64,000 nt of DNA, taken from a virus. Under the pieces are notes generated by a model, which did not search any database, had not been told where the DNA came from, and saw nothing but the letters and a program-made list of their open reading frames with translations. The stretch spans positions 124,001-188,000 of IMG/VR virus record IMGVR_UViG_3300044700_000691. One strand, 5' to 3'. The translations under genes were made by a program, and so were the position numbers. Every line of letters starts with the position of its first letter. Within the stretch, counting starts at the first letter, position 1. Positions 8,188-62,578 of this stretch are shown in pieces.

Positions 8188-8610
8188 ATGCTTAAGAATT
8201 TTAATTCCTGGTTAACCGAACAAACTGACCCAATGTCAATGGATCCAGCGGTTGCTGCTCCGGCCGTGCCGGTGGCACCTGGCAAACCTGCTCAAATTAG
8301 AGCAATTTTAATATCAAATCCAATTGGTTCAGTCGATATGCCTGGCGATATGTCAACTAAGCAATTTAACGAATATGTTCTAGACCTCGATAGAGTTAAA
8401 GAATGGATTACTAAAAATGCAAAGGAGTCAGAACAAGAAATTTTAGACTACTTATCAGGAAAAGATATTGAAGTTAAAGACGCCCATAAAAAATTCACGA
8501 AAGCTGTACAAGCTGACGAATTTGGAAAAGCTCAAACTGTAATTGATATAGATTTTACTAAAGAAGGCGAACCTACTACCAAAGACATTAACTTAATATT
8601 TTTAGCATAA
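8188..8610 (+). CDS. Putative packaged head protein with N-terminal capsid-targeting-like tag
   Basis: A 140-residue protein that begins LKNFNSWLTEQ, matching the recurrent tag [IVL]xxFxx[FYW][ILV]xE seen on many proteins here and on T4 internal proteins. A Pro/Ala-rich linker follows (about residues 15-35), then a mixed alpha/beta acidic domain of unknown family. Predicted cleavage by the prohead protease would be after E11. The gene has its own late-promoter-like motif although it sits between nrdA and a zincin-like gene. Packaging inside the head is inferred from the tag only. Confidence 0.55.
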   Translation: MLKNFNSWLTEQTDPMSMDPAVAAPAVPVAPGKPAQIRAILISNPIGSVDMPGDMSTKQFNEYVLDLDRVKEWITKNAKESEQEILDYLSGKDIEVKDAHKKFTKAVQADEFGKAQTVIDIDFTKEGEPTTKDINLIFLA

Positions 8611-30088: not shown

Positions 30089-30442
30089 TTATTTTTGTTT
30101 GCTAGCCATCTTAGGATCAACTGACTTAGTGATAGCTGTACCTTTAATAACTAATTTGCCAAATGCTGGATCAACTGACTTAGTGATAGCTTTACCTTTA
30201 GGCGCAGCTTCTGCTAAGTTTTGGTTAACAGACTTAGTGATTTTAGCACCTTTAGCGGCTTTAAGATCAGTCATTTTAGTGTCAACTGATTTTTTAATGC
30301 TAGAACCTTTAGGCATATCTAATTTAGCCATTTTAGGATCAACGCTTTTTCCTAATCTAGAACCTGCAGCAGGCATAGATGCTAAGTTTTGGTTAACTTT
30401 TTCAGTTAGGAATTCTGTGTAAGACAATACTTGGTTTGCCAT
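30089..30442 (-). CDS. Tagged, lysine-rich repeat protein (putative internal head protein)
   Basis: A 117-residue protein beginning VLSYTEFLTEK, an excellent match to the T4 capsid targeting sequence pattern. After the tag come about six 18-19-residue repeats centred on KSVDPKM or KSVNQNL (Lys at residues 15, 32, 51, 70, 88, 106). The mature protein would be small, strongly basic and repetitive, which suits DNA binding inside the capsid, like T4 internal proteins. A terminator-bounded leader of about 150 bases with a late-promoter motif precedes it, so it can be expressed separately from the capsid gene. Confidence 0.65.
   Translation of the reverse strand: MANQVLSYTEFLTEKVNQNLASMPAAGSRLGKSVDPKMAKLDMPKGSSIKKSVDTKMTDLKAAKGAKITKSVNQNLAEAAPKGKAITKSVDPAFGKLVIKGTAITKSVDPKMASKQK
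30092..30400 (-). repeat. Tandem 54-57-bp repeats encoding KSVDPKM units
   Basis: Five clear and one partial in-frame repeat in the 117-residue basic protein; the DNA alternates similar phrases such as gatcaactgacttagtgatagc on the plus strand. Confidence 0.8.
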
Positions 30443-30676: not shown

Positions 30677-32266
30677 CTAAGCAACATACTCACCAGTTAA
30701 GTGTTTAACACCCGTTGCATTAGCACCGTCAACAATATTAAATTGTACGTACTGAGTTTGTGGATGCCATCCAGCTTCAACTAGAGCATATCTTGACTTC
30801 ATTCCGATTTTCGGAGAGAATGTACCCTCTGAAATAGTTTGAAGAGATTCAGCCATGATGTAAGGCATGAATTTAAGTCCTGGCTCTTCGTCAGCACCTT
30901 TACGTCCGATAAGAACAGTGTTGTTATCAAAACGTAAGTTTGGATCAACATAGATAGTTAAACCGTGAACTTTACCAGCAGGGTAAAGAGTTCCAGCAGT
31001 AGAACCTAAATCATTGTTGAATGGAGCGATTGAATAACCAGCAGCATCAGCCATAGCAGATGCAACTTTAGCAGAAACTACTGCGAAAGTACCAGCTCCG
31101 AAACGAGCTCTGTGATAAATTAAGTTAGCAGATTCAAGAATCTTAGTAACTAATTTTCTTTGAGAAGTCGTTACGTTTTCAAAAGTACCAGAACCTGGTT
31201 GAACGTTAACGTTAGCAACATAACCTTCAGTTGCGTTAGCAAGTGTAGCATTAGTTGTAGCTAAGTTTTTAACTTTAGAAACGATTTCTTTGTTGATTGT
31301 TTGAGCAAGCTCATTAACAGCAACGTTCTCCAACATAGAGATTGCATCGAAATTCCAAACTCTGTTAAGATCTTGGATTTGTTCAACAGTTGCAGAGATA
31401 GAAACTTGAGAAGTTTTAGCCTCAACGAACTTAGTAAACATTTTAAGACCCATTTGACGGAATTTAGAACCTTCACCAGCTGCTCTATCCATAGATTGAG
31501 TATACTCATTTCCAGAAAGGAAAGGACCAGAGAAATCTGTGTGAGCTTCAGTTGAAGTCGAAGTGAATCCAGAGATGTGGTTTTCTAAAGCAGATACTAA
31601 ATCAACTTTGTTAGCCGCATCTAAAGTTACACTGTTTAACACTTTACCAGCACCTAAGTAAGTAGCTAAAGTGATAGAATCATCAGAAGTAACTACTTTG
31701 AAGATCAATTGACCGTCAATACGTGAAGCACCTACGAATTGTAGTGTAAGTACTGCAGCTGTTCCAGCTCCATCACCATCAACTGTGTACTCAGTACCAG
31801 CTGTGAATGTAGCCTTTTCACCTGTAGTGAAATCAGCGATTTTGATCAAATATGGTTCGAATTCAGTACCTAAGTTACCACCTTGGTAAACATAATCTAG
31901 GTAAGGAAGGAAACCAACTGGAGAGTCCATAGGAACTACACCAACTAGGTCGAAACCAATTGTTTTTGCTGCTACTTGAATAGCAACTGGCAATAAACTT
32001 GGGAATTTATCACCTGAACCGTTTGCACCTGTTGTAGGAGCTAATGGGTTACCGATTCCACTGATAGAACCTGGTTGTTGATAGAATAAGCCTGGAGCAA
32101 CTGTAGCTTCATTGATTGAACCTGCGTTTTCGAACATTGCGTGATAGTGGCAATAATCTACTAACCAAGGACGTGAATCTGCGTTTACACCATAGCTTTC
32201 TAAAACTGGAGCCCAAGTTGACTTAATCGAAGAATCGTTTAGTCTTTTAAATACTTTTGTAGACAT
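30677..32266 (-). CDS. 23: Major capsid protein, gp23-like
   Basis: A 529-residue HK97-fold capsid protein; T4 gp23 has 521. N-terminal residues 1-53 look like a propeptide ending in the prohead protease consensus I-N-E|A (residues 51-54). T4-like signatures include FDLVGVVPMDSPVGFLPYLDYVY and the C-terminal region GRKGADEEPGLKFMPYIMAESLQTIS. After cleavage the mature N-terminus would begin with a Gly/Pro-rich arm (residues 54-90) that is also found at the end of the 537-residue protein at 44413. It lies 17 bases after the protease-scaffold gene and ends at a strong terminator. The phage GroES probably assists its folding. Confidence 0.93.
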   Translation of the reverse strand: MSTKVFKRLNDSSIKSTWAPVLESYGVNADSRPWLVDYCHYHAMFENAGSINEATVAPGLFYQQPGSISGIGNPLAPTTGANGSGDKFPSLLPVAIQVAAKTIGFDLVGVVPMDSPVGFLPYLDYVYQGGNLGTEFEPYLIKIADFTTGEKATFTAGTEYTVDGDGAGTAAVLTLQFVGASRIDGQLIFKVVTSDDSITLATYLGAGKVLNSVTLDAANKVDLVSALENHISGFTSTSTEAHTDFSGPFLSGNEYTQSMDRAAGEGSKFRQMGLKMFTKFVEAKTSQVSISATVEQIQDLNRVWNFDAISMLENVAVNELAQTINKEIVSKVKNLATTNATLANATEGYVANVNVQPGSGTFENVTTSQRKLVTKILESANLIYHRARFGAGTFAVVSAKVASAMADAAGYSIAPFNNDLGSTAGTLYPAGKVHGLTIYVDPNLRFDNNTVLIGRKGADEEPGLKFMPYIMAESLQTISEGTFSPKIGMKSRYALVEAGWHPQTQYVQFNIVDGANATGVKHLTGEYVA

Positions 32267-32283: not shown

Positions 32284-33630
32284 TTAGTTTTGTGCTCTTC
32301 TTTTTAGAGCGTCGAGGTATGTGTTACCATAGCCTCTTTGATGTTCCGCAACTTTCTCAATCGAGATAAAACCTTCTCTACCTTGGCTTTCGTTGATGTG
32401 TTGCGCATTTTTATTTTGTTTTTCGAAATAAATTCTTTCATTAATTCCTCTTAGATCTCTGCTCTCCCAGAAGTTTTTAACTTGGTAAGGAGTGTTAAGA
32501 ACAGTTAGGGAAGCTTGTGCTTCTAAGCGGCTCTTTTCTGCAGGGGTCATGCTTTCAAAAATATCTTTGAATTTAGTAGGCATGAATTTGATTAAGGTAG
32601 GAACGTTTTCTTGTTGTTTGTTAAGAACTGACTCAATAATTTGGATAACGTCTTCTTCTTTAAAATAAACTGCTCCAGAAAGAGCTTCTATAATAGCAGT
32701 TTTTTGTGTTTGATCTAAATTAAAGAATCTTGATTTATTATCTTCGTTAAGAAGTTTTAGGAATGGATATCTGCTTTCTAATACAGATTTAGCTGAGTTA
32801 TCTTTAATATGCTTAACAATTGCATTTACTGAACCAACTATATCGTTAACTTTAGAACCTTCAGCAACTTGGTAGTTTACTGATTCGTCTAATTTTTCGA
32901 TTTGGCTAAATGCAGAGGCAGATTTGGTAGAAAGACCAGATTTACCGTCATTTAGTGATTCTGCAATATACTCAGAATATTTAATTCCTTTTTCAAGGTT
33001 TTCAGCAAGATAATTAGCGTAACCAACTGAGTGCTTTAAGTTTTCAGCAACGTATTCAGTGTATCTGATACCTTGTTCTGATTTTTCAGCAACATACTCA
33101 GTGTATTGAATTCCTTTATCAAGGTTTTCTGCTAAGTATTCTGTGTACTTAATATTTTTGTTTACGTTTTCTGCGATATGCTCAGAGTAATCAATTGCAT
33201 TATTTAAGTTTTCGCCAACGTATTCAGAGTAACCGATACCTTGTTCAACTTTTTCAGCAAGATAATCCGAGTAATCGATTACCTTATTAACTTTCTCAGC
33301 AACATGCTCAGAATAGTCAATTGATTTGTTTAACATGCCAGAAAGGTAATTGTTATATTCAATTACTTTGCCAAGCTCGCTTGAAAGATAGTTAACGTAC
33401 TCAACTAATTGGTTATTAGTTGCAGGTGTGTTTTCTTCTTCAGCATTTAGATCTGTAACCAAATTCGGATCTTCATCTGTTTGGTCTTCTTCGGTAACTG
33501 CGAAGTTATCAACCATTTTATCTACACTCTCCTTAAGAGAATCAAACTTGCCTTTAACAAGTTCAGAATATTGGTTGAACGCTTCTTTCGTTACAAACTC
33601 ATTAGTCATGTGTTTGTTATTATTTTCCAT
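32284..33630 (-). CDS. 22: Possible nested scaffold-only product (internal start)
   Basis: An in-frame ATG (Met229 of the fusion) is preceded 19 bases upstream by ATAAATAAT, the late-promoter motif at the spacing used by other late genes. It would yield a 448-residue scaffold with all eleven repeats but no protease, like lambda C/Nu3, giving the excess of scaffold over protease that assembly needs. This is inference from sequence only; the motif might be chance because it also encodes residues of the fusion. Confidence 0.4.
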   Translation of the reverse strand: MENNNKHMTNEFVTKEAFNQYSELVKGKFDSLKESVDKMVDNFAVTEEDQTDEDPNLVTDLNAEEENTPATNNQLVEYVNYLSSELGKVIEYNNYLSGMLNKSIDYSEHVAEKVNKVIDYSDYLAEKVEQGIGYSEYVGENLNNAIDYSEHIAENVNKNIKYTEYLAENLDKGIQYTEYVAEKSEQGIRYTEYVAENLKHSVGYANYLAENLEKGIKYSEYIAESLNDGKSGLSTKSASAFSQIEKLDESVNYQVAEGSKVNDIVGSVNAIVKHIKDNSAKSVLESRYPFLKLLNEDNKSRFFNLDQTQKTAIIEALSGAVYFKEEDVIQIIESVLNKQQENVPTLIKFMPTKFKDIFESMTPAEKSRLEAQASLTVLNTPYQVKNFWESRDLRGINERIYFEKQNKNAQHINESQGREGFISIEKVAEHQRGYGNTYLDALKRRAQN

Positions 33631-34314
33631 AGGTTTTACTATCTCTTCATTATTTATCTTATAAACTTTGATCGATTCTGCGAGGTTTAAGCTTTCAGAA
33701 ATATCTACCAATTTGTTTATAATTGAGCTTGATTTAATATTATCCAAAGATTCGAAAAGCATAGAATAATTGCTTTGGAAACTTTCGTTAACTGATCTTC
33801 TAAGAACTGCTTCGCTAAAACCAGGCTCAGCGACTAAGTCGTATGTGAATATTCTTTGGATTTTTACTTTACCCTCATTTGCTACTTGACCAGCAGCTCT
33901 TGAAGAGGTTGAAATTGTACAGCCTGACTCAACTAGAGTTTTTGCAATCTGACCAGCCGGTGTATTTAGCAGACGTACTTTAATTTTTACGTTATTAGAA
34001 TCTTGATCGTACCATAATTTCTCAATTACGTGAGAAACATTCTTAAGTGAAACATCAAAATTTTGTGGATGATCTAACTCACCAAATAGTTGACCCTTTT
34101 CGATTTTCTCGTTTAGGTATTCTAGGTGTGGAAGATACTCAGCTTTTTCGTAGATTCGGTTGTTGTTATTCTTTGTGTCAAATACTGCACAAACCCCTTC
34201 CATAACAATGTCACCATTCTCTGACTTAACTGTGTTTAGACCTTCATTTACTCTTTCAATAATGAAGAGCATATCTGAGGTATTTGTAATTTCGTTTACG
34301 TCTGTAAGGACCAC
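32284..34314 (-). CDS. 21: Prohead protease-scaffold fusion (gp21-gp22-like) with 14-residue repeats
   Basis: A 676-residue fusion, GTG start. Residues 1-175 are a gp21-type prohead serine protease: GELDHP with catalytic His82, and the CTISTSSRA serine region (about 135-138). T4 gp21 is 212 residues. After a likely self-cleavage site (SVNE|S, about 177) comes a helical scaffold. Residues 303-456 contain eleven uninterrupted 14-residue repeats with core [IV]xY[ST]EY[VLI]AE[NK]. Fourteen residues equal two heptads, so a coiled coil is likely. The repeat core matches the head-targeting tags on many other proteins in this genome. The C-terminal 220 residues are helical and gp22-like. A late promoter lies 20 bases upstream, and the capsid gene follows. 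Confidence 0.88.
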   Translation of the reverse strand: MVLTDVNEITNTSDMLFIIERVNEGLNTVKSENGDIVMEGVCAVFDTKNNNNRIYEKAEYLPHLEYLNEKIEKGQLFGELDHPQNFDVSLKNVSHVIEKLWYDQDSNNVKIKVRLLNTPAGQIAKTLVESGCTISTSSRAAGQVANEGKVKIQRIFTYDLVAEPGFSEAVLRRSVNESFQSNYSMLFESLDNIKSSSIINKLVDISESLNLAESIKVYKINNEEIVKPMENNNKHMTNEFVTKEAFNQYSELVKGKFDSLKESVDKMVDNFAVTEEDQTDEDPNLVTDLNAEEENTPATNNQLVEYVNYLSSELGKVIEYNNYLSGMLNKSIDYSEHVAEKVNKVIDYSDYLAEKVEQGIGYSEYVGENLNNAIDYSEHIAENVNKNIKYTEYLAENLDKGIQYTEYVAEKSEQGIRYTEYVAENLKHSVGYANYLAENLEKGIKYSEYIAESLNDGKSGLSTKSASAFSQIEKLDESVNYQVAEGSKVNDIVGSVNAIVKHIKDNSAKSVLESRYPFLKLLNEDNKSRFFNLDQTQKTAIIEALSGAVYFKEEDVIQIIESVLNKQQENVPTLIKFMPTKFKDIFESMTPAEKSRLEAQASLTVLNTPYQVKNFWESRDLRGINERIYFEKQNKNAQHINESQGREGFISIEKVAEHQRGYGNTYLDALKRRAQN
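32947..33408 (-). repeat. Eleven tandem 42-bp repeats in scaffold coding region
   Basis: Residues 303-456 of the protease-scaffold fusion read as eleven 14-residue units in perfect register. Examples are SIDYSEHVAEKVNK, NIKYTEYLAENLDK and GIQYTEYVAEKSEQ. The first two units are the most diverged. Confidence 0.95.
33649..33657 (-). promoter_or_regulatory. Possible internal late promoter for scaffold-only product
   Basis: ATAAATAAT on the minus strand inside the protease-scaffold gene, 19 bases before the in-frame ATG at 33630. Confidence 0.35.
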
Positions 34315-34333
34315 GTTGCCTGATTTTTTTTAT

Positions 34334-34341
34334 TATTTATA
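34334..34341 (-). promoter_or_regulatory. Putative late promoter for prohead genes
   Basis: TATAAATA, an exact match to the T4 late promoter box, on the minus strand, 20 bases before the GTG start of the protease-scaffold gene. Confidence 0.7.
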
Positions 34342-39888: not shown

Positions 39889-41700
39889 TTATCTAGATCC
39901 GCCGACTGTACCAACTTCAGGCGGCACATAGAAGTATACGTCCTTTAGAAATACTGCGCCTTCTCCGTCCGCTGTGCCTGCGCCATATCGATTATTTAAC
40001 CAATTTGCAACTTGTCCTTGTCTGGCGTCGCTTGCGCTCTGCTTTTTCGGCTCCTCCGTGGTTCCTCTACTAGCTAATTCCTGACCTTTATTTTCTATTC
40101 CGTATGTATTAGCCTGATCATATGTGTGTCCTACAAATGTTTCAACATAATCGGTTCGACCTAAGTTAAACGTTTGTCTAATATCAGCACTATCTCTTGG
40201 TCTGGTTGGAGAAAGAGTTACTGTAAATTTTAAATCAATTGGAAAATCTTCTGGACCCAATTCTTCGCCAAAATCCAATGAACAGCTTCTAACAATAACA
40301 TCTCCAATTCTCATAATTGGATTCATTGGGTTGCCTATTGTTAAGTGCCAGTTCCCAGTTGGCATGTCTGGAACATTTGCTCTCTGTTGAACAAATGCAG
40401 GAAAACTGTCGGCTAGTGCCTTTGTTATTTCAACATTAAGAGCTGCCTCCATGGAAGCTTTGTCTGCTGCTGACATACCTTCATATGGGTTAACATTAAA
40501 ATCACCACTTAATACAGATTTAGCAGTACCCACTACTACATTGGTAGCAGTCTTTGCCAAAGCCGGCGCTAATTTGCCTGCCAATTTTAAAATTGAACCT
40601 GCCCTGGCCTTGGCGATATCGGTAAATGCAGCAAGTAACTTATCTGGATTTAATCCGCCTGAAACAAAGGCACTTTCTAGTAGAGCCTGTTCAGTTGGTG
40701 CAAGTGCAAGTCCTAGTTTTTTATAGTAGACGTTTAGTGACTGCAACCATTCTCCATCAGAATAGGTTAAAGCTAGCATGTTTGCAATAATGTCTAGTGC
40801 AACTCTTTTTTGACTCATCCCAAAATACGAATCAGTTTTATATTCAAATATAATTACCCAATTGGCATCTTGAGCAGTAGTCGAAAGCCCTCTATCCCTA
40901 ATTAAAAAATCTTTTTTAACATTAACTGGACCTTGTATTTGATTAAAAAAGGCGCCATTATCTGCCCATAATCCCTTTAAATAAATTTGTTCATTTTCTT
41001 CAATTTTAGCCCTACCGTATTGGTCAGCGGTTCCGCCACCAGCTATTCCATCTGCCTGATTTGCTAGATTTTCTACCGCTGCTATGAGAGCTTTATTCGC
41101 GCCGCTTGCACTTAAACCTTTAACTAGGGATTGTGTAAAATTAGTAACATTATTTCCCGCAACTTCCTTAGGCGCAGTGTCCTTTTTTGTCCAAGCCAGC
41201 GACCATGTACTTTGCCAAATTTTGTTTAGGTCATTACCCGTTCCAGCCCCAAACCAAGTTACAGCCTGTGCGACTGGTATATTTTGAACCGGTTTTGCTC
41301 TTTTAATTGCAGCATCGTCATTTGATGCTAACGGAAATTTTCTAAGGGTTATAAGTCGGTTGTTTGGCACAATTCCATACCATTTACAAAATAGGAAATC
41401 TGACCATGTGTATGGCGAGTTTTTTATGCCATACTTACTATTATCTTGATTGACTGGAATAGTTTTAGCCCAGTCAACAATAGCAGATGCAGTTGGATTA
41501 CTAATAATATGAGGCGCGGCCCCATGTCTTGAACTTTGATTATTGGATGAATAGGTTGATTCATCAATTATATCAACTCCACCACTATACTTAAACACAT
41601 AAAATGCATTAAATAGAGAAGTGGCTCCGCCCGATGACTGTGGAGCACCGGTTTTGGTATCTATAACTGGAACTTCTTGTCCTTTACTGCCTGTTGCCAT
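39889..41700 (-). CDS. Putative tail-tube initiator/baseplate protein
   Basis: A 603-residue protein. The C-terminal segment MRIGDVIVRSCSLDFGEELG, then EDFPIDLKFTVTLSPTRPRD, strongly resembles the conserved end of baseplate-tube junction proteins of T4-like phages (gp48/gp54 type). The N-terminal half is beta-rich with WSDFLFCKWYGIVPNNRLITLRK. It is the first gene of the baseplate operon and has a late-promoter-like motif 17 bases upstream. Confidence 0.6.
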   Translation of the reverse strand: MATGSKGQEVPVIDTKTGAPQSSGGATSLFNAFYVFKYSGGVDIIDESTYSSNNQSSRHGAAPHIISNPTASAIVDWAKTIPVNQDNSKYGIKNSPYTWSDFLFCKWYGIVPNNRLITLRKFPLASNDDAAIKRAKPVQNIPVAQAVTWFGAGTGNDLNKIWQSTWSLAWTKKDTAPKEVAGNNVTNFTQSLVKGLSASGANKALIAAVENLANQADGIAGGGTADQYGRAKIEENEQIYLKGLWADNGAFFNQIQGPVNVKKDFLIRDRGLSTTAQDANWVIIFEYKTDSYFGMSQKRVALDIIANMLALTYSDGEWLQSLNVYYKKLGLALAPTEQALLESAFVSGGLNPDKLLAAFTDIAKARAGSILKLAGKLAPALAKTATNVVVGTAKSVLSGDFNVNPYEGMSAADKASMEAALNVEITKALADSFPAFVQQRANVPDMPTGNWHLTIGNPMNPIMRIGDVIVRSCSLDFGEELGPEDFPIDLKFTVTLSPTRPRDSADIRQTFNLGRTDYVETFVGHTYDQANTYGIENKGQELASRGTTEEPKKQSASDARQGQVANWLNNRYGAGTADGEGAVFLKDVYFYVPPEVGTVGGSR

Positions 41701-41716
41701 TTAGTTAATCCTTTTT

Positions 41717-41725
41717 ATTATCTAT
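41717..41725 (-). promoter_or_regulatory. Variant late promoter for baseplate operon
   Basis: ATAGATAAT on the minus strand, one mismatch from ATAAATAAT, ending 17 bases before the start of the 603-residue gene. Confidence 0.35.
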
Positions 41726-41763
41726 TTGTGACAATAAAAGAGTTCGTATGCGGAGGTAATGGA

Positions 41764-42483
41764 TTATCCGTGAAACGGATCGAGATCTGGATTAGGAATC
41801 ATTTTCCAGCGTCTTTCTAGGTTCATGCCTTGGCCTCTAGCTAATTGAATCTCTGTTGAGTGATCTTTAATTGCATTTAGTGCACCAATATAATCACGTC
41901 GATCAACAAACGATTGAACATAGTCAGCAACATCATCAGTTAAAGAAACTCTATAAACAACTGGATGGCGCTGTTGATTAAAGCTGCAGCGCATCATCAT
42001 CATATTTAGCTGACCATTGTATGCTTGCATTACGCTCTTTCGGGTCGGGGCAGTTTCATCAGCAAGACCTAAATCATGGATTCTATCTAATTGATTTAGG
42101 TAATTATGATCAATATTTTCTTTAGTAAAAGATTCTACACCATGACAATCTGCAATACCAAAGTACCAACTAGCTGGCTTCTTTGCTTCATTTAAAAAAG
42201 AAGAAAAGGTTAGTACTCTACTTTCAGGCAACGGCTCATTTACATCAATTAGGTCTAGATCTGCATCGCGAAGATCGTAAATCTCGTCAAAGGTTGTACC
42301 TTCGAACTCAATAGGTTCTTCTAAATCGACCATGTATAAAGTTTGATCTGGTGCATAGTCTAATCTATAGACTTTGCCAATAGTAACAATTTTATTATCA
42401 ATTGGGGCGCCTACCAGATTGAGACGGTCCATTGTATCTTTAGATAATCTAAGCTTAACTTTATCGCCGATTTCAAATGCCAT
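41764..42483 (-). CDS. Hypothetical protein with internal head-targeting tag
   Basis: A 239-residue protein. Residues 1-80 form a KOW/SH3-like beta domain (IGDKVKLRLS, then KIVTIGKVYRLDY). Residues 90-99 are VLTFSSFLNE followed by Ala, an ideal tag and protease site. Residues 101-239 form a separate alpha/beta domain (WYFGIADCHGVESF, then MMMMRCSFNQQRHPVVYRV). Cleavage would free the C-terminal domain inside the head. The CHG and multiple Met/Cys/His suggest possible metal binding, but no enzyme family is recognised. Confidence 0.6.
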   Translation of the reverse strand: MAFEIGDKVKLRLSKDTMDRLNLVGAPIDNKIVTIGKVYRLDYAPDQTLYMVDLEEPIEFEGTTFDEIYDLRDADLDLIDVNEPLPESRVLTFSSFLNEAKKPASWYFGIADCHGVESFTKENIDHNYLNQLDRIHDLGLADETAPTRKSVMQAYNGQLNMMMMRCSFNQQRHPVVYRVSLTDDVADYVQSFVDRRDYIGALNAIKDHSTEIQLARGQGMNLERRWKMIPNPDLDPFHG

Positions 42484-42752: not shown

Positions 42753-43229
42753 TTACCTAGTCTTTTTGACATCTGCCCAAGATTTACTTGGACCTGCCGC
42801 ATTTACTCTAGCCATTGCCCATTGATGAGCAGTCATTCCTGGTCTGGAACCAGAAGAGTAGAATGCACCTAGACCTTTGGAATATTCTCGTTTTAAATCA
42901 GCAAACGAATAACCCTTTTTAGTAGCAACTGCCCTAATTTTAGCTAGGGTTTCTTTGCTAAGGTTAGAAGATTTTTTCTTATCCGCCTCAGTTACCTTTG
43001 AATCAGGTCTTGGCGTATTTTTCCAACCAGATTTCTTTCGTTCAGCGGCCTCCATCTCATCTCTAAGTTTATATGCAGCATCCTTTTTACCGCTATCTAA
43101 TAAACTCTTCGCTTTATCTAGCTTTTTATCTCTAGAACTTCCTTCTGGGGCTTTATATTGAGCTGGATTTTCAAGAGTCGACTTTTTCTCAAGTAAACTT
43201 ATGTATTCATTAAATGGTTTTACGTACAT
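42753..43229 (-). CDS. Tagged putative head protein with SSGSRPGMTAHQWAMARV motif
   Basis: A 158-residue protein that starts VKPFNEYISLLEKK, a tag-like N-terminus. The C-terminal part (LKREYSKGLGAFYSSGSRPG, then MTAHQWAMARVNA) matches a small domain common in T4-like phages of unknown function. It is strongly basic. It sits in a run of tagged small genes, so it is likely packaged. Confidence 0.6.
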   Translation of the reverse strand: MYVKPFNEYISLLEKKSTLENPAQYKAPEGSSRDKKLDKAKSLLDSGKKDAAYKLRDEMEAAERKKSGWKNTPRPDSKVTEADKKKSSNLSKETLAKIRAVATKKGYSFADLKREYSKGLGAFYSSGSRPGMTAHQWAMARVNAAGPSKSWADVKKTR

Positions 43230-43232
43230 CGT

Positions 43233-43520
43233 TTATGACTTTTTATTTAGTTGGCGCTTTACCTCGGCTCTAACCTTTTCCATCTTTTTAGCATAGGCTG
43301 GATTATCATTACGATTAAATACAATTTGCTGGTTAAGGCTACCTGTAATTTTTCTCATATCGCCGCCTCTAGTTTTAATTAACCATGAAGCTAAGGCTTT
43401 GATTCCAAGGCTTTTAAATCTACCATTTGCATCAGGGGCATTTGAATCGTGCCAATCTGGTGAGTTTTTGGTTTTTCTTGCCTCTGTAATAAATTCTGTG
43501 TATGTAAGTATATTATTCAT
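43233..43520 (-). CDS. Tagged small internal head protein candidate
   Basis: The ATG at 43520 is two bases after the previous stop and gives 95 residues; a longer frame to 43568 overlaps the upstream gene. It begins NILTYTEFITEARK, almost the T4 IPIII targeting sequence (TYxEFIxEA), with cleavage predicted after TE. The mature part is basic (DMRKITGSLNQQIVF, KKMEKVRAEVKRQLNKKS). It is a prime candidate for an ejected internal protein. Confidence 0.65.
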   Translation of the reverse strand: MNNILTYTEFITEARKTKNSPDWHDSNAPDANGRFKSLGIKALASWLIKTRGGDMRKITGSLNQQIVFNRNDNPAYAKKMEKVRAEVKRQLNKKS

Positions 43521-43524
43521 ATAA

Positions 43525-44052
43525 TTACCAGTACCCCGGATAAGTTTTACCGCCCCAAAGATGAGCATATCGATTTATTCGGCAAGCCCAATATCCAGCT
43601 TTGGTTTTGTCTTTCTTTAGGTGACATTGATGTCTAGCTGCAAATGATGCTCTAGCCTTTGGATTGCTTACCTTTGCGGTAAGGCCTCCATGGATATCGC
43701 CGAATGCAATTTTAATGATTTTGCCAGTTTTTGGATTTTTAACGTAGACATGATACTTTTTAGCACCACCTCGTTTTGGATAGTTTAGGTCAACTTCTCG
43801 ACCTTTATATTCAGCCTCATTAAGTTCTTCAATTGGAAAATCTAGTGGCACTGGCTCCCCTAAATATTCTCCAATAAAACCTAAATCAGTTTTTATGAAT
43901 AATTCCTCTGTAATAGAATCAAATGTAACCCCATTTTCAAAATAAAACCTAGCCTCAGTTAATAACGAAATATGTGCATCACTGCCCGGCCTAAAGGCGG
44001 ATTCGGCAATACATATATTTTCATTTAAATGATACTGTAGATTAGGCGACAT
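43525..44052 (-). CDS. Putative virion protein with two prohead-protease sites
   Basis: A 175-residue protein. LLTEAR (about residues 30-35) and ELNEAE (about 75-80) each match [IL]xE|A cleavage sites. The C-terminal 90 residues (KKYHVYVKNPKTGKIIKIAF, then NPKARASFAARHQCHLKKDK and AGYWACRINRYAHLW) are a conserved Cys/His-containing basic domain seen in head-gene clusters of many T4-like phages. Cys/His spacing (H-x-C-H ... C) could bind metal. Cleavage would release this domain. Confidence 0.6.
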   Translation of the reverse strand: MSPNLQYHLNENICIAESAFRPGSDAHISLLTEARFYFENGVTFDSITEELFIKTDLGFIGEYLGEPVPLDFPIEELNEAEYKGREVDLNYPKRGGAKKYHVYVKNPKTGKIIKIAFGDIHGGLTAKVSNPKARASFAARHQCHLKKDKTKAGYWACRINRYAHLWGGKTYPGYW

Positions 44053-44066
44053 TTAATAATTAGATT

Positions 44067-44411
44067 TTAGTATTCCTTTGGGTCTTCTTGAATTAGTTCC
44101 TTATCTTGAGAATCGTTAACTTCATTAATTAAAAAGTTAAATACCTCTTCTACGTCATCTTTTGATGTAGCAATATGGTCAGCTGCCCATGCGTGTCCGT
44201 TTTTCAAAATTTCATCAACACTAGACTCGTCCATTTCTAATAAAAGATCAACACATCTTTTAATTGTTTTAAGATTTCCAAAAAACATATAATTTTCATA
44301 TTCAGCTTCATGTGAATCTTCTTTGCTGTGTATTGGTTCAGCTGCTAGTTGAATTTGAGTTGGCTCGAAATCTTCTTGTGAAAATGATTCGAAAGTTTTA
44401 ATTTTTTGCAT
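44067..44411 (-). CDS. Tagged acidic protein, putative head cargo
   Basis: A 114-residue protein that starts IKTFESFSQED, a tag-like N-terminus lacking the usual L/I-x-E ending. The rest is acidic and helical. It ends 14 bases before the next gene and is embedded in the tagged-gene run. Function is unknown. Confidence 0.5.
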   Translation of the reverse strand: MQKIKTFESFSQEDFEPTQIQLAAEPIHSKEDSHEAEYENYMFFGNLKTIKRCVDLLLEMDESSVDEILKNGHAWAADHIATSKDDVEEVFNFLINEVNDSQDKELIQEDPKEY

Positions 44412-44412
44412 T

Positions 44413-46026
44413 TTACTTTTTATTTAAATTTTTATAAAAGCTAGTAAAGTCTAAAATATTTCTATTAGCTTTTTTAGATTTCTTTGGTTGAAAATTATCA
44501 CCAGAACCTGGTGAAGTTTGAGTTGGCGCAATTGGATTACCCATGCCGCCGATACTTGCTGGTGTTTGCATTGCTACACCTGGTGATGCAACATCCTCTT
44601 TAACTTGACCGGATCCAACTTTAGTTGCTCCTTTAATTTTACTTTGTGGTGCATCTAGTCCGCTTTCTGCACTTGTAAATAAGAAGCGTGTCCACTTTTC
44701 AGCTTTTAATTGAGCCTCTTTACCACCAGTCACCTTGGCAGTTCTTGAAATGGTTCTTCCAATAATAGGTAAAGTTGCTTGTCTAAATCTTGCGAGTTGA
44801 GCTCCAAGATTCTTTTGCTCTTCTCCTTGATATTCGACAGTTGCCGATAGCGTACCAAGATAGGTTCCAATCTTTAGTAGATAATTAATTCGGCTGGAGT
44901 CTAACATTTGTTTAGACGTAATTGCAATTTTAGTTCTTTCAAATAGAGGAAGCTTAATTTCTGGAGAATAGGCAACTCCCTTATAACGACTTATGTCAAG
45001 GTCAGTTTTATATTTTCCAAGACGAGTCCTTGCCTCTAAGTATGCCTCAATTGCCTCAACCATATATTGTTTCTTGGCCGAATCGTCGAGAGTCTGTAAC
45101 ATAGTTCGACGTTTTGTAATAGCATCAATTTCGCCTCGCTCATCCGTCATAATCATAATACGAACTTTTACAAATTGAGACTCTAATGTATTTAGGTCTG
45201 GCCAATTTCTAAGTTCTTCGATTGCATTTCTAATAATAACGTCACGTTTAACTAATTTCTCAGCCTTACCGCCAGTTCGCTTATTAAAATCCTCTGACGA
45301 TTTCTTGAAGTCGTCAACATCATTATCCATTTCCGTTTGAACTTCTTCCCATTCAACATCAATAATATCTGGTTCAGGCTTCTTTTTATCCTCATCTTTA
45401 TTTGAAAAGTCTGAAATAATATAGGCTACCTTTACCGAGTCTTCTGCTGTTTTTCTAAAGTCTTCAGAATCTGCAGTCGTACCATCCATTTTTTCCTTGG
45501 CAGAGCTAACTAATGTTTTAGTAACCTCAGCTTCAGTTTTCTTTTGATCAGTAAATGAAATTTTAATTTTATCAAGCAGGTCATTAACCTCGGCTGTCCA
45601 ATTGCTCTCCTCAATGGTTTGATATGCTTCCCATACAATAGCCATTCGACCTTTGTATGCTCGTATTCTCTCTAACTGTAATTCAATGTCTTCGCCATCT
45701 TTAATCATTTGATCAAGAACTTCGGTTTCAATTTTTAAAGTTTGAGAAATAAAATCAATATACTTATTTAAAATATCAATCCATTCTTTATTAAGAAAAG
45801 CTTGGCTTAATTGCTGAAGAACCTGAGGATCAGTCTTTGCCTTATTTAAAATATCATTTTCGATAAGTCTTGATAAAAACTCATCGACCTTCTTCATGAT
45901 ATCCTCCTCCTTTTTATTGGAGCCTTTGGCAAATGTGATAATATCAGAAATTTCATTTCCAATAATAATTAATTCAGATTCTAATAGAAGCTGTTCGAGG
46001 ATATGTATGTGTTTAAATTTCAGCAT
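44413..46026 (-). CDS. Head-region protein sharing a capsid-protein arm motif
   Basis: A 537-residue, mainly helical protein. Residues 481-514 (VASPGVAMQTPASIGGMGNP and the following IAPTQTSPGSGDNF) align with residues 56-88 of the major capsid protein, the arm just after its cleavage site. The C-terminus (NILDFTSFYKNLNKK) also resembles the head-targeting tag, here at the end of the chain. Residues 1-200 contain coiled-coil-like stretches. It may sit on the inner capsid surface using the same contacts as the gp23 arm. No enzymatic motif is recognised. Confidence 0.6.
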   Translation of the reverse strand: MLKFKHIHILEQLLLESELIIIGNEISDIITFAKGSNKKEEDIMKKVDEFLSRLIENDILNKAKTDPQVLQQLSQAFLNKEWIDILNKYIDFISQTLKIETEVLDQMIKDGEDIELQLERIRAYKGRMAIVWEAYQTIEESNWTAEVNDLLDKIKISFTDQKKTEAEVTKTLVSSAKEKMDGTTADSEDFRKTAEDSVKVAYIISDFSNKDEDKKKPEPDIIDVEWEEVQTEMDNDVDDFKKSSEDFNKRTGGKAEKLVKRDVIIRNAIEELRNWPDLNTLESQFVKVRIMIMTDERGEIDAITKRRTMLQTLDDSAKKQYMVEAIEAYLEARTRLGKYKTDLDISRYKGVAYSPEIKLPLFERTKIAITSKQMLDSSRINYLLKIGTYLGTLSATVEYQGEEQKNLGAQLARFRQATLPIIGRTISRTAKVTGGKEAQLKAEKWTRFLFTSAESGLDAPQSKIKGATKVGSGQVKEDVASPGVAMQTPASIGGMGNPIAPTQTSPGSGDNFQPKKSKKANRNILDFTSFYKNLNKK

Positions 46027-49573: not shown

Positions 49574-50074
49574 TTAGTCCAAAGATCCGTATTTTCCTGC
49601 TCCCATATCCTTTGCAAAATCTTTGCCAGCCTTTGAAGAAACGCTAAGGCTAATGCCTTTTAGTAAACCAGCATCCTCTGGGTTCTCTTCAAAATAGGTA
49701 ATTAAGCTAGCTAGGTTAACATTTTGATATGGTTGAATTGTTCCTTCTGGTAGTTTTTTTTCTAATTCTCTACCAGATGAATAGTCTTTCCAGTTAAGAT
49801 TCCAACAATAAAATCTAACTTCTTCTTTCATTTTTGTTGTATAGTAACGGTCAACATCTGCAAGTCTGGCTTGAACTTCAGAAAGATCAGTTTTATATGA
49901 AGTCGAGTGGCCATAGATATCAGCTGGTGTTCCAATGCTTAAACTATCTGATGTAATATCAGTCAATTTAACTAGTTGGTCCATAAGTTCCTGAAATGGT
50001 AATCCTTTAAGTGCCTCAGATTCTTCTGCTTCGTTTAGGAACTGCTTAAAGTTTCCAATAGTGCGTTTTGTCAT
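49574..50074 (-). CDS. Tagged putative head protein
   Basis: A 166-residue protein that begins IGNFKQFLNEAEE, a strong tag with predicted cleavage after LNE. The mature part is helical and acidic (FQELMDQLVKLTDITSDSLS) with a middle beta region (EVRFYCWNLNWKDY). A late promoter lies 21 bases upstream. The gene sits between the kinase-like and ligase-fusion genes. Function is unknown. Confidence 0.6.
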   Translation of the reverse strand: MTKRTIGNFKQFLNEAEESEALKGLPFQELMDQLVKLTDITSDSLSIGTPADIYGHSTSYKTDLSEVQARLADVDRYYTTKMKEEVRFYCWNLNWKDYSSGRELEKKLPEGTIQPYQNVNLASLITYFEENPEDAGLLKGISLSVSSKAGKDFAKDMGAGKYGSLD

Positions 50075-52217: not shown

Positions 52218-53780
52218 TTGCTAAAGTTTAAGTTAACACCAGATAAAAGATATTTTCAATTAATACATAATGACCTTAAAAAAGAACTGGTTGATCTTAA
52301 GAACTTTTTTAAAAAACGAGCTAAAGGCTATCACTTCAGTCCGCTATTTCAGCGTCGCCTTTGGGACGGTTACGATAAATTTATTGATCGTGAAAACCGA
52401 ATTGGCGTAGGGTTATGGTATCAAATCAAACAGTTTAGCCAAATTTATGGTCATGAAATTGAGTTAGATGGCTTAGATTCTCTGCTTAATCTTGAATTTA
52501 CAAAGGATCAACTTGATAAATTTGCAAGCGTCCTATTAGATGGAGTTGATCTTACTCCATACGATTACCAAATGGAAGCTGCCTACCGTGCACTTAAATT
52601 TAAGTTTAGCGCTCAGGAATTAGCAACATCAGCCGGTAAAACCCTAATCCTATTTTTATATCTAAGTTTCCTTAAACGTAAGGGAATTATTAATGGTAAA
52701 GATAAAAAGGCTCTAATCGTAGTGCCTAATATCTCACTAGTTGGCCAAACTGCAGAAAAATTTATGAAAGACTATCATACTGGTCTAATTAACTGGAATA
52801 TCCTTGAAGTTGGTGGTAAAAACAAATACTCAGACAAGAAATTTGAAGATGCTGACCTGGTTATTTCAACATATCAAAGTTTAGCAAAACGCGATGGAGA
52901 TTTTTTTAAGAAATTTACCGTACTGTGTATTGATGAGTGCCATACTTCAAGAGGCGATACAATTAAAGATATTCTTCTAGCCTCAACCAATGTTGAATAT
53001 AAGCTGGGTCTATCTGGAACAATTCAAGTAGATGAAGATTTTTCTGATTTCTATAAAATCCAAGAATACATTGGCCCTCTAAGCATGACTCTTAAATCAA
53101 GCTTTTTAATTGAAAACAAACATTCGCCTGATGTTTACATCAAGATGCTTTTCTTAAAATATCCTGAAACTGAACCTTTTATCCAAAACTATAAGTATAT
53201 GCAGGAGCACGGTAAAAGTCAATTTCATCGTATTGAAGACTATGGCAAAAACATGTTTCAAATGGAAAAGGATTTTATTATTTCATATGAACCGCGTGTA
53301 GATTTTATTTCGTCACTAGTCCAAAAACTAGGCGGCAACTCACTGATACTATTCATTAATGTGAAGGACAAATATGGTCAACGTATTAAAGAAAGAATTT
53401 TAGAATGGAATCCAAATTCATTCTATATTGATGGTGAAGTAAGTGGAGATCATCGAGCCGAATATAAAGATGCAATGGAAGCTGGGTCTAATGTGGCCCT
53501 AGTTGCAAGCTATGCAACCTTTGCGACTGGTATTGACTTAAAGAATGTGCAAAATATTATTTTTGCAGAAAGCTATAAATCTGAAATTACTATTCGACAA
53601 GCAGTCGGTCGTGGAATGCGAAAGTTGGCTGGAAAAAGCAAGGTAACAATTTACGATCTAGTTGATGATCTAAGTGGTTATATTGTAAAGCACGGTAAAG
53701 TTCGTGAGAAAATTTATGAAAAGGAACAGTGGATTGTGTCTAAACACAGCTACGATTTAAGTAAATTTCTTAAGGATTAA
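52218..53780 (+). CDS. uvsW: UvsW, superfamily 2 DNA/RNA helicase
   Basis: A 520-residue SF2 helicase. A UvsW-type N-terminal domain (residues 1-100; GYHFSPLFQRRLWDGYDKF) precedes motif I TSAGKT, motif II DECH, motif III GLSGT, and helicase C motifs ATFATGIDLKN and QAVGRGMRK. It unwinds R-loops and branched intermediates and helps switch from origin- to recombination-dependent replication. The start is a TTG at 52218, 16 bases after the UvsY-like gene. It converges with the next minus-strand gene, their stop codons overlapping. Confidence 0.93.
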   Translation: MLKFKLTPDKRYFQLIHNDLKKELVDLKNFFKKRAKGYHFSPLFQRRLWDGYDKFIDRENRIGVGLWYQIKQFSQIYGHEIELDGLDSLLNLEFTKDQLDKFASVLLDGVDLTPYDYQMEAAYRALKFKFSAQELATSAGKTLILFLYLSFLKRKGIINGKDKKALIVVPNISLVGQTAEKFMKDYHTGLINWNILEVGGKNKYSDKKFEDADLVISTYQSLAKRDGDFFKKFTVLCIDECHTSRGDTIKDILLASTNVEYKLGLSGTIQVDEDFSDFYKIQEYIGPLSMTLKSSFLIENKHSPDVYIKMLFLKYPETEPFIQNYKYMQEHGKSQFHRIEDYGKNMFQMEKDFIISYEPRVDFISSLVQKLGGNSLILFINVKDKYGQRIKERILEWNPNSFYIDGEVSGDHRAEYKDAMEAGSNVALVASYATFATGIDLKNVQNIIFAESYKSEITIRQAVGRGMRKLAGKSKVTIYDLVDDLSGYIVKHGKVREKIYEKEQWIVSKHSYDLSKFLKD

Positions 53781-54559
53781 TTAATATGACCGTCTGCAAC
53801 TTCCTCTTCTAAAAAATCTAGAAAATACTGCTTTGCATTTTGCTCAAATTCTCTGTGTTGACGTTGGATTGACTTAAGATCATCTTCAATCTGTTCAAGT
53901 TTAGAGTATTCTGCCTTAAACCATTTAATAGATTCAGTTAATTTATCAGTAATATCCTTTACTGCGTCTTCATCTTCAACTAAACCAAGTTCAGCAAGAC
54001 GTTTCCATTCAGCACTATTAATTGCATTAGCAACGTCTGCAATAGTTTCTTCATCGTAATATTCTTTAGTATCTAAATATTCCTGAATGGTTTCTTCAGC
54101 GTATTCTAATAGACGATCTGCTCCATTATCTGGTGAAAGGTGAATCCAACCGCCGCTATTGCCGCCCCAACCAACATGTCCAACCCAATCATAAGATTGT
54201 TCAATGTCTTCTTGGAACATTTCGGCTTGGTCCTGTAGCCATCTATACCAAATATCAGAGAGTCTTTCTTCGTCCAGCTCTATGCCAACCTTTGCCAAAA
54301 CCTCTTCATTATCTGGCGAATTATAAACCTTTACGTTTAGGGCAAAAAAGTCTCCATTGTATTGATTACGACCTCTGTTTAGATTCCAACCATCTGAAAA
54401 TATCGAATCGATCTTGGCCTCAAATAATTCTAGTTTTTCAAGTAAGTCCTTTTCCAACCAAAAATCTCCAAGCTGCTCTGTATAAAAGGCAACTAGCGAA
54501 TTATTATTTGCCTTTACGTATTCTCTACTAAAATTTTCAAATAGTTTAATATGTTTCAT
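53777..54559 (-). CDS. Tagged hypothetical protein, putative head cargo
   Basis: A 260-residue protein that begins IKLFENFSREY, a tag-like N-terminus with the aromatic spacing but a weaker end. The body is very acidic and aromatic (IWYRWLQDQAEMFQEDIEQ, WVGHVGWGGNSGGWIHL). No enzyme motif is recognised. It is last in a three-gene minus operon. Confidence 0.5.
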   Translation of the reverse strand: MKHIKLFENFSREYVKANNNSLVAFYTEQLGDFWLEKDLLEKLELFEAKIDSIFSDGWNLNRGRNQYNGDFFALNVKVYNSPDNEEVLAKVGIELDEERLSDIWYRWLQDQAEMFQEDIEQSYDWVGHVGWGGNSGGWIHLSPDNGADRLLEYAEETIQEYLDTKEYYDEETIADVANAINSAEWKRLAELGLVEDEDAVKDITDKLTESIKWFKAEYSKLEQIEDDLKSIQRQHREFEQNAKQYFLDFLEEEVADGHIN

Positions 54560-59444: not shown

Positions 59445-61154
59445 ATGGCAGGATTTCTAGACAATATCGGCTTAGGAGGACTTAAATCAAGACTATCAGA
59501 TTTAAGCCGAGTTGGTATGAAGTACGAGGATCTTTTAATTAAGAACTCACAATCGATAGGTTTTATTGAAAGTCAATTAATGCAAGCTCGAGGCAGTGTT
59601 TTACCAGGAGGTCAGACTGACTCTTTAGCAAGAGCAACTATGGCAATCTCAGATACAACATCTGCTCTTAGAACTAAAGCTATTGCATTTTTCCAATTGG
59701 ATTATGCAACAAAACGCGAAAGACTTAGAGACCTTGCATCAAATGGTGAAATTGAATTTGTAATTGAGTCTATTACAGACGACGTTATTGTATTTGATGA
59801 AGATAACAGATTTGCTTATCCAAATGACCTAGTTGGCGAAATGCTCTACAAAGGTAAAAACAAAGAGCAGCGTCTTAAATATCAAGAGAAAGTTATTGAC
59901 AAATACAATGAAAACTTTGAAAAAATCTACAATGCATGGGGTTTCAACGAAGGAATTTCAGCATGGCAGTATTTCTTTCAATGGTTAATTGAAGGTCACT
60001 TAGCATTTGAAATTCTCTATGATGACTTACAAAATCCAAGAGAAATTATTGGATTTAAGGAGATTGACCCTTCTACACTATATCCACAAATTAAAAAGGA
60101 TGCAGCTGGAAAGATCTTTTTAGAATGGGCACAAAAAGTTCCTGGCGAATCTAAAGTAAGAACACTTACTGATTCTCAGGTTTTATACCTATCATATTCA
60201 AACCACTTTAGAACAAAACGTATCTCGTTTGTTGAAAGAATGGTTAGATCATTTAACTTAATGCGTGTTATTGAACACTCTAAAGTTATTTGGCATACAA
60301 TGAACGCTCCGATTCGTTTAACAACTAAAGTTCCAATTGGAAGTAAGTCACTAAACAAAGCAAAAGAAGATGTTCGTGAATTTGCAAACCAATTAAAAGA
60401 AGATATTTTCTTTGATACTAATACTGGTGAAATTCAGGTAGACGGTCGTCCAAATCTACTATTCTACAAGAATTATATTTTACCAGTTAATGACCAAAAC
60501 CAGTCAATTGAAATTGCACCACTAGAATACGCAGGTCCTAATATGTCTGGCTCTGAACTTCTTAACTACTTTAAAGAAAAGTTAAAGATGGATTCAAAAA
60601 TCCCTTATTCACGATGGGATTCAGCAAATGGCTCAGGTCAATATACAATGAATGCTGAAGGTATTCGTCGAGAAGAGATTCGTTATAATAAATTTGTAAC
60701 GCGTTTGCGCTCTGCATTTAAGGAACTTTTAACTAAGCCTCTATATTTACAAATGTGTCTTGATTTTAAAGACTTAAAAGATGATTATCGTTTTAAAAAT
60801 GCAGTTGGTATTAACTGGCATGATGATAACGTCTTTGAAGAAATTAAACAACAGGACTTACTTAATAAACGTCTTGCAACAATTAACGCTCTTAAAGGAG
60901 TTGTTGATGATGAAGGCAAACCATACTTCTCTACTGAATACTTGGTTAAAGAGTATTTACGTATGAGTGATGAAGATCTTCAAAAGAATAGAGACTATAT
61001 GAATCAAACTCCAACTGGAGAAGGCGAAGCTGGAGAAGCAGCCGCACCTGGAGCTGCTCCTGAAGCAGGTACTGCACCGGAAGGTGGAGCTGGCGCTGAA
61101 GCCGCAGCTGGCAAAGAAACTGCATCTGAATTAGGCGCGCCTGGAGCTCTATAA
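59445..61154 (+). CDS. 20: Portal protein, gp20-like
   Basis: A 569-residue portal. Signatures include ERLRDLASNGEIEFVIESIT, AWQYFFQWLIEGHLAFEILY, the MNAPIRLTTKVPIGSKSLNKA region, and the NGSGQYTMNAEGIRREEIRY loop typical of T4-like portals. A Gly/Ala/Pro-rich tail (about residues 520-569) is probably disordered. It forms the dodecameric DNA entry channel. The gene ends at a strong terminator. Confidence 0.92.
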   Translation: MAGFLDNIGLGGLKSRLSDLSRVGMKYEDLLIKNSQSIGFIESQLMQARGSVLPGGQTDSLARATMAISDTTSALRTKAIAFFQLDYATKRERLRDLASNGEIEFVIESITDDVIVFDEDNRFAYPNDLVGEMLYKGKNKEQRLKYQEKVIDKYNENFEKIYNAWGFNEGISAWQYFFQWLIEGHLAFEILYDDLQNPREIIGFKEIDPSTLYPQIKKDAAGKIFLEWAQKVPGESKVRTLTDSQVLYLSYSNHFRTKRISFVERMVRSFNLMRVIEHSKVIWHTMNAPIRLTTKVPIGSKSLNKAKEDVREFANQLKEDIFFDTNTGEIQVDGRPNLLFYKNYILPVNDQNQSIEIAPLEYAGPNMSGSELLNYFKEKLKMDSKIPYSRWDSANGSGQYTMNAEGIRREEIRYNKFVTRLRSAFKELLTKPLYLQMCLDFKDLKDDYRFKNAVGINWHDDNVFEEIKQQDLLNKRLATINALKGVVDDEGKPYFSTEYLVKEYLRMSDEDLQKNRDYMNQTPTGEGEAGEAAAPGAAPEAGTAPEGGAGAEAAAGKETASELGAPGAL

Positions 61155-62350: not shown

Positions 62351-62578
62351 TTAGGCAGTTGGTGCCTGTGCAGCAGCCATTTTAGCAGCTTCTGCTTTCT
62401 TTTTATCCTCTTCGGTTTTTGCAGCAGTAGCATCAGCAATTTTTAATTTAATTGCATCAAGTTCTTTTTGAGAATCTAGTACCTTTTGCATAGCAGTTGC
62501 TTCTTGTTGGTTTAACGCAACTAGGTCTGCTGAAGCATCTTCATTTAGACCAAAGTAGTTTTGAAATGACTTAATCAT
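62351..62578 (-). CDS. Tagged small coiled-coil head protein
   Basis: A 75-residue protein that starts IKSFQNYFGLNEDAS, tag-like with LNE|D; this start closely matches residues 406-417 of the ligase fusion (FNQFFGTDEDAS). The rest is an Ala/Lys/Glu-rich helix. It may be a prohead core or internal protein. A late promoter lies 19 bases upstream. Confidence 0.55.
   Translation of the reverse strand: MIKSFQNYFGLNEDASADLVALNQQEATAMQKVLDSQKELDAIKLKIADATAAKTEEDKKKAEAAKMAAAQAPTA

Follow-up and report, generated by a model that had tools for sequence, protein, structure and literature searches.

The stoichiometry in bacteriophage T4 is of 576 molecules of the scaffold gp22 to about 100 of the protease gp21 (PMC5694885). 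In T4 the internal proteins IPI, IPII and IPIII and the protein Alt begin with a capsid targeting sequence (CTS). Targeting of IPIII relies mainly on the aromatic residues 4 and 7 of this sequence, while its processing is set by residues 8 and 10 (PMC9026906); internal protein I is an injected counter-defence or takeover protein (PMC3012670). Reviews of T4 in the open-access literature describe the capsid-targeting tags as associating with the core, leaving the docking surface unnamed. In herpesviruses, UL26 joins protease and scaffold in one polypeptide, with an R-site cut between them, and a second in-frame gene, UL26.5, codes for the scaffold alone (PMC12474303). Among phages, Tenacibaculum phage PTm1 has a fused gene (ORF-300) with different repeats, annotated as 'prohead core scaffolding protein and protease', and the Lak phages have a fusion without repeats, whereas in Sphingomonas phage PAU protease and scaffold are separate genes (gp151/gp155); the protease of all three is related to the one described here, and none has YxEYIAE repeats. 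Flavobacterium phage MaF61 has a 1404-aa putative prohead scaffold (L040:3893-8107), with the protease domain first and a very long remainder. The bS21-encoding Bacteroidota lake phages of PMC9723584 also have a gene named prohead core scaffolding and protease, in passages that mention neither repeats nor tags.

The window examined here, a stretch of 64,000 nt, comprises positions 124001-188000 of a 216,815-bp (216.8 kb) viral contig (G000), on which genes were called simply as longest ORFs. The contig probably comes from a large phage of Bacteroidota, because it contains a bS21 gene and its gene starts are A-rich and poor in Shine-Dalgarno sequences (at only 15 of 170 starts). A Bacteroidota host is also proposed for the related lake phages, which likewise encode bS21 (PMC9723584). 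The bS21 gene (41662-41814 of the contig) is flanked by a NUDIX protein and a second protein, both bearing the N-terminal tag described below (region 41150-42432). A T4-type portal gene is situated at window positions 59445-61154. The genes and sites of the capsid and its protease are as follows.

32284..34314, minus strand: protease-scaffold fusion gene, 676 aa (Peptidase_S77, phrog_207; relatives share the layout)
33784..34314, minus strand: protease part, aa 1-177, with His82 and Ser137 (alignment with T4 gp21, PAU, Lak and huge phages)
33781..33792, minus strand: predicted self-cleavage junction VNE177/S ([VIL]NE[SA] conserved, Glu177 invariant)
30677..32266, minus strand: major capsid protein, gp23 family (PF07068, 9.4e-48), the next gene after the fusion gene
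32105..32116, minus strand: predicted capsid propeptide cut site INE53/A (related capsid proteins have [IM]NE in roughly the same position)

An earlier note, made by reading the letters of the window, had proposed a gp21-type protease with His82 and a serine near 135-138, fused to a scaffold that contains eleven 14-residue repeats. Profile searches bear out the protease, with matches to Peptidase_S77 in Pfam (2e-12, aa 35-149, 47.5 bits against a curated cut-off of 27) and to the head maturation protease phrog_207 in PHROGs (3.5e-35); both His82 and Ser137 are the same in every sequence of an alignment that covers T4 gp21, PAU, Lak and huge phages. The joined repeats are read directly from the ORF at 32284-34314. 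The C-terminal part gave no match to a gp22 family in Pfam or PHROGs, and we infer its role as scaffold from its position and the layout of the gene. An AlphaFold model of the fusion, built on a nine-row alignment, predicts a long helix with low confidence (mean pLDDT 46). The same fusion gene is carried by IMG/VR loci at 77-100% identity and by the huge phages LR756500-LR756504 and LR745206 at 33-40% identity. The 14-aa repeats, the form of the tag, the junction and an internal methionine are common to all of these; the huge phages differ in repeat copy number, and the nested promoter described below was seen in the clade of this contig only. The one-polypeptide arrangement, which the earlier note believed undescribed, is thus already known from PTm1 and the huge phages, herpesvirus UL26 being the classic case (PMC12474303); what this locus adds is a conserved internal promoter and start, and a predicted self-cleavage junction.

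Directly behind the protease domain, [VIL]NE[SA] occurs in every repeat-bearing fusion and in Lak, and Glu177 is invariant in the alignment, where it is matched to ITE/S of T4 gp21. A cut motif of the form [ILVM]xE is common to the tags, the major capsid protein and the protease-scaffold junction. From the conserved junction and the [IM]NE of the capsid propeptide, the favoured site of the protease therefore looks like [ILVM]NE/, these being candidate sites. A 537-aa protein (window 44413-46026, minus strand) has a C-terminal stretch, ASPGVAMQTPASIGGMGNPIAPTQTSPGSGDNF, that resembles the capsid protein just after the predicted cut site and is followed by a tag-like end, NILDFTSFYKNLNKK; its homologues in the related genomes G002 and G003 also match the capsid query at the capsid-like part. 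Nearby, a 964-aa protein (window 46664-49558, minus strand) has an N-terminal RNA ligase domain (2.8e-7) and a large remainder without assignment.

Two copies of a short promoter word and a putative nested product were found at the fusion gene.

34332..34341, minus strand: late-type promoter predicted for the fusion gene, TATAAATAAT (upstream enrichment of ATAAATAAT)
33649..33657, minus strand: internal copy of ATAAATAAT, predicted nested promoter, 27 nt ahead of the in-frame ATG229
32284..33630, minus strand: predicted scaffold-only nested product, aa 229-676, starting at Met229 (internal promoter, spacing, conserved Met)

The word ATAAATAAT is close to TATAAATA, the T4 late consensus. Of its 20 copies in the contig, 17 fall in the 90 nt that precede a gene start, where 1.06 would be expected (p 2e-19), and the first base of the word is often 24-30 nt from the start codon. 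Words with the same letters rearranged also prefer the A-rich upstream regions, but less so (mean fraction 0.24 versus 0.85). Only the exact 9-mer was informative, its one-mismatch form being at chance level, and a scan for sigma-70 promoters likewise gave a chance result. The internal copy is one of the few that do not precede an annotated start; it is kept in all five sequences compared and also stands inside the fusion genes of G002 and G003, and synonymous divergence around it is zero, against a mean of 0.24 for the gene. Distant repeat-bearing fusions keep a methionine at the place of the nested start, inside a variable linker, and in four huge phages the homologous methionines rank between the 82nd and 96th percentile for start-like context. 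Among the internal ATGs of this contig, Met236 ranks at the 99th percentile and Met229 at the 71st; Met236 was considered as the nested start from this context alone and discarded, since promoter spacing favours Met229. These features are most naturally read as pointing to a second product made of scaffold only, which is predicted here; this product would solve the stoichiometry problem that the fusion creates. The arrangement recalls UL26.5, although the nested product of the phage is a prediction. Herpesviruses are not known to have cargo tags or tag-like repeats, and the likeness is one of gene layout.

The scaffold part contains a conspicuous array of repeats.

32956..33417, minus strand: eleven 14-aa repeats, aa 300-453, core IxYxEY[ILV]AE (direct reading and column counts; helix in the low-confidence model)

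Nine of the eleven units match [YFW]xx[YFWH][ILVM]xE, where the rate at internal positions would predict 0.25; the glutamate is missing in units 1 and 2 (VEYVNYLSS and IEYNNYLSG). The two tyrosines are the most conserved of the 14 columns (entropies 0.46 and 0.51), above the aliphatic positions.

The earlier note had also listed eight unrelated proteins whose N-termini carry a motif of the same kind, four of which fit it strictly (8188, 30089, 43233 and 49574) and four only loosely (53777, 44067, 42753 and 62351).

8188..8610, plus strand: tagged protein, tag FNSWLTE (strict motif)
30089..30442, minus strand: basic repeat protein with the tag VLSYTEFLTE (strict motif, retained at 23 related loci)
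43233..43568, minus strand: tagged protein, tag ILTYTEFITE (strict motif, which needs an internal start at the second Met, MNNILTYTEF)
49574..50074, minus strand: tagged protein, tag IGNFKQFLNE (strict motif, behind the promoter word ATAAATAAT)
53777..54559, minus strand: loosely tagged protein, MKHIKLFENFSRE (top score with the motif learned from other phages)
44067..44411, minus strand: loosely tagged protein, MQKIKTFESFSQED (passes the 1% internal threshold with the transferred motif)
42753..43229, minus strand: loosely tagged protein with a DUF5824 body, MYVKPFNEYISLLE (direct reading only)
62351..62578, minus strand: loosely tagged protein, MIKSFQNYFGLNE (direct reading only)

The protein at 30089-30442, beside the capsid gene, has an N-terminus (SYTEFLTEKVNQNL) that resembles one entire scaffold repeat unit and a body of degenerate repeats around KSVDPKMA. 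Just beyond the window (188076-189452 of the contig, minus strand), a 458-aa protein behind ATAAATAAT and without a Pfam match has three internal tag-like copies, FADFLNE, FDGYVNE and YNDYVKE.

The tag on many unrelated proteins held up well when searched for across the contig and its relatives. The strict motif [YFW]xx[YFWH][ILVM]xE, a regular expression shaped by the finding itself, occurs near the N-terminus of 14 of 278 contig proteins (shuffle mean 0.99, maximum 6 in 2000 shuffles), and over the whole contig it is commoner at N-termini than at internal positions (Fisher 1e-6). A motif learned only from other phages, and so independent of the finding apart from a generic CTS-like seed, marks 25 N-termini in the contig against 2.4 expected at a 1% internal threshold, and transfer leaving one genome out at a time gave enrichment in all seven repeat-bearing genomes, this contig included, although these genomes are related and their counts are not independent. 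The scans covered the first 390 kb of two genomes (W02 and W04) and about 195 kb of Lak. In the repeat-bearing huge phages (462-735 kb) the tag is found on tens to more than 100 proteins, reaching 123 of 895 N-termini in LR756502 (0.9 expected; two-fold cross-validation, 0.1% internal rate). At least 123 proteins of LR756502.1 (642 kb) share MKHLKKYNES or MKYLKxYKIFES, often in neighbouring genes. A first EM motif search with no held-out data was overfitted, yielding a 'motif' even for the control PTm1, and was superseded by the cross-genome transfer and the cross-validation.

With the transferred motif, PAU showed no tag excess, and PTm1, Lak and MaF61 a slight one with top hits mostly of another form; these four related phages, which lack the repeats, have a different N-terminal motif or none that is clear. 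The N-terminal motif of PAU is a different one, MKTIxxLYE[SA], and its scaffold gp155 contains a similar ELYEAL; Lak (Lak-A1) has one resembling MNKNIKxLxES. C-termini showed no tag enrichment. Clustering of tagged genes was not significant in this contig (p 0.40) and was significant in the four huge phages.

The tag has the CTS spacing of T4 (0, 3, 4, 6), with aromatics at positions 4 and 7, an aliphatic residue at 8 and Glu at 10. Judged by its sequences, it is a portable signal at the protein level, because the tagged bodies are mostly unrelated (22 bodies fall into 22 clusters) and the tag codons vary synonymously. Its genes also tend to follow the promoter word: with the looser form [ATG]ATAAATA, 23 of the 82 led genes are tagged, compared with 24 of the 469 others (odds 7.2, p 5e-9 over three genomes, an optimistic value since these are related; singly, 2e-4, 5e-3 and 7e-4). 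This association agrees with the tagged proteins being late cargo and suggests it indirectly. The motif might instead be no address to the head at all, serving as a translation-enhancing start or as a signal for another cell compartment, which would suit the presence of more than 100 tagged proteins in one huge phage, against the handful known in T4, and the variability of the huge-phage tags noted above. This we consider very improbable, given the unrelated bodies with synonymous codon variation, the enrichment of tagged genes of this clade downstream of the word that leads the scaffold gene, the CTS shape of a motif whose end is a cut site of the type that this protease uses, and homologues that alter the letters of the tag and preserve its shape (YTEFITEA versus FTAWINEA). 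What the scaffold repeats and the N-termini of these proteins have in common suggests a putative address label, by which the tagged proteins would be loaded into the head and then injected.

The earlier note's view that the repeats mirror the tags is upheld for the four CTS positions, since the repeat Y-x-E-Y-[ILV]-A-E keeps all targeting and cleavage positions of T4 at the same spacing, and the T4 CTS compared with the repeats gives p 0.007 by column shuffling. Beyond these positions the view loses ground: profile comparisons of the phages' own tags with the repeats (identity and BLOSUM62, column shuffles), in which some of the de novo N-terminal motifs were junk, reached p 0.04 at best and were otherwise not significant, and a weight matrix built from the eleven repeats and scanned over the proteome gave top hits without N-terminal preference, missing the tags. 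The second aromatic is F in the tags and Y in the repeats, and the residue after the motif is often Ser or Ala in the former and Asn or Lys in the latter. Docking of the tags as repeat mimics is accordingly a claim that goes beyond the evidence, there being no clear sequence signal past the four positions. The repeats could also be an ordinary helical rod that sets the size of the core, the match to the tags being a coincidence of helix-friendly residues; besides these weak profile tests, the 14-residue period of two heptads, the variation in copy number among phages and the long helix of the low-confidence model fit such a rod. We find it improbable, as two fixed tyrosines are more conserved than the aliphatic positions, the T4 CTS does match the repeats, and the tag is enriched in the repeat-bearing genomes, related as they are, and not clearly in the four without repeats.

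A different account holds that tags and repeats are alike because both are substrates of the protease, the repeats being sites at which the scaffold is shredded and the tags docking elsewhere in the core. Both contain [ILV]xE, they are unlike beyond four positions, and T4 gp21 requires only L/I-x-E and cleaves its scaffold to pieces (PMC9026906, PMC5694885). Against this, the most conserved repeat columns are the two aromatics, which are targeting and not cutting residues in T4, and an aromatic pair at that spacing is absent from the capsid and junction sites. The IPIII tag, MKTYQEFIAE, itself has Ala at P2, as the repeats do, which speaks for shared cutting. However, Asn at P2, present at the conserved capsid and junction sites and in 52% of the tags, is found in 0 of 62 repeats; because this residue of the likely cut site is missing, docking is favoured over a shared cutting site, and we regard the shared-substrate account as unlikely. 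Tags and repeats would then share docking residues, with the favoured cutting site missing from the repeats.

This locus is a real, unusual variant of T4-type head assembly. As in T4, an S77 protease lies beside gp23, unrelated proteins begin with short propeptides that contain two aromatics and [IL]xE, and the capsid propeptide and the C-terminal side of the protease itself are probably cut. In contrast with T4, protease and scaffold are fused, there is an internal scaffold promoter, many more genes are tagged, Asn is apparently preferred at P2, and the scaffold carries repeats, which T4 gp22 does not have even though T4 has such tags. On balance we think it probable that the gene encodes the prohead core of a phage related to T4 and works as follows. 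One transcript would give a self-cleaving protease-scaffold fusion, and the internal promoter additional scaffold on its own; the scaffold, predicted to be helical, would form the core that the capsid shell is built upon. At least about twenty other proteins of the contig have at their N-terminus a short tag like that of T4, probably an address, whose two aromatics may bind to the core; the likeliest dock is in or between the 14-residue repeats, which show the same aromatic pair many times. In the closed prohead the protease would cut after [ILVM]xE, preferring Asn in the middle, at its own junction (VNE177/S), at the capsid propeptide (INE53/A) and at the tags, and cutting of the tags would free the cargo inside the head for injection. 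The sequences themselves establish the fusion, the repeats, the tag enrichment with its link to the promoter word, and the conservation of the internal promoter, the start and the junction motif; packaging, docking on the repeats, each of the cuts and the scaffold-only product are what we infer from them.

Most tagged proteins of the contig have no Pfam match. One of the tagged proteins is a NUDIX enzyme, and an amidase is loosely tagged. The 123 tagged proteins of LR756502 hit 16 Pfam families, and an untagged set of equal number and similar size hits 54, with many housekeeping enzymes among the latter. Families on the tagged side include acetyltransferases, SET, HNH, lysozyme and a 2H phosphoesterase, the latter with the tag KKYLEFMKE/S and also above the Acb1 anti-CBASS cut-off. 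These contents fit, without proving, a cargo of injected takeover and counter-defence proteins.

It is conceivable, although we give it somewhat less than an even chance, that huge phages load a very large set of proteins through one N-terminal address, the repeats docking the tags and being spared when the tags are cut. The candidate cargo of LR756502 would then exceed 120 genes, including the Acb1-like anti-CBASS enzyme and acetyltransferases, and, if this is true, infection would open with the delivery of a wide range of counter-defence proteins from the head. With up to about a dozen copies of the tag's targeting residues, the scaffold presents a definite candidate surface for docking that can be put to the test, and the predicted nested scaffold gene would bring the UL26/UL26.5 gene arrangement of herpesviruses to a T4-type head. 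The tag is also a reading key that flags, from the sequence alone, candidate injected proteins among the uncharacterised genes of huge phages, and the genes so marked are a likely source of new counter-defence proteins.
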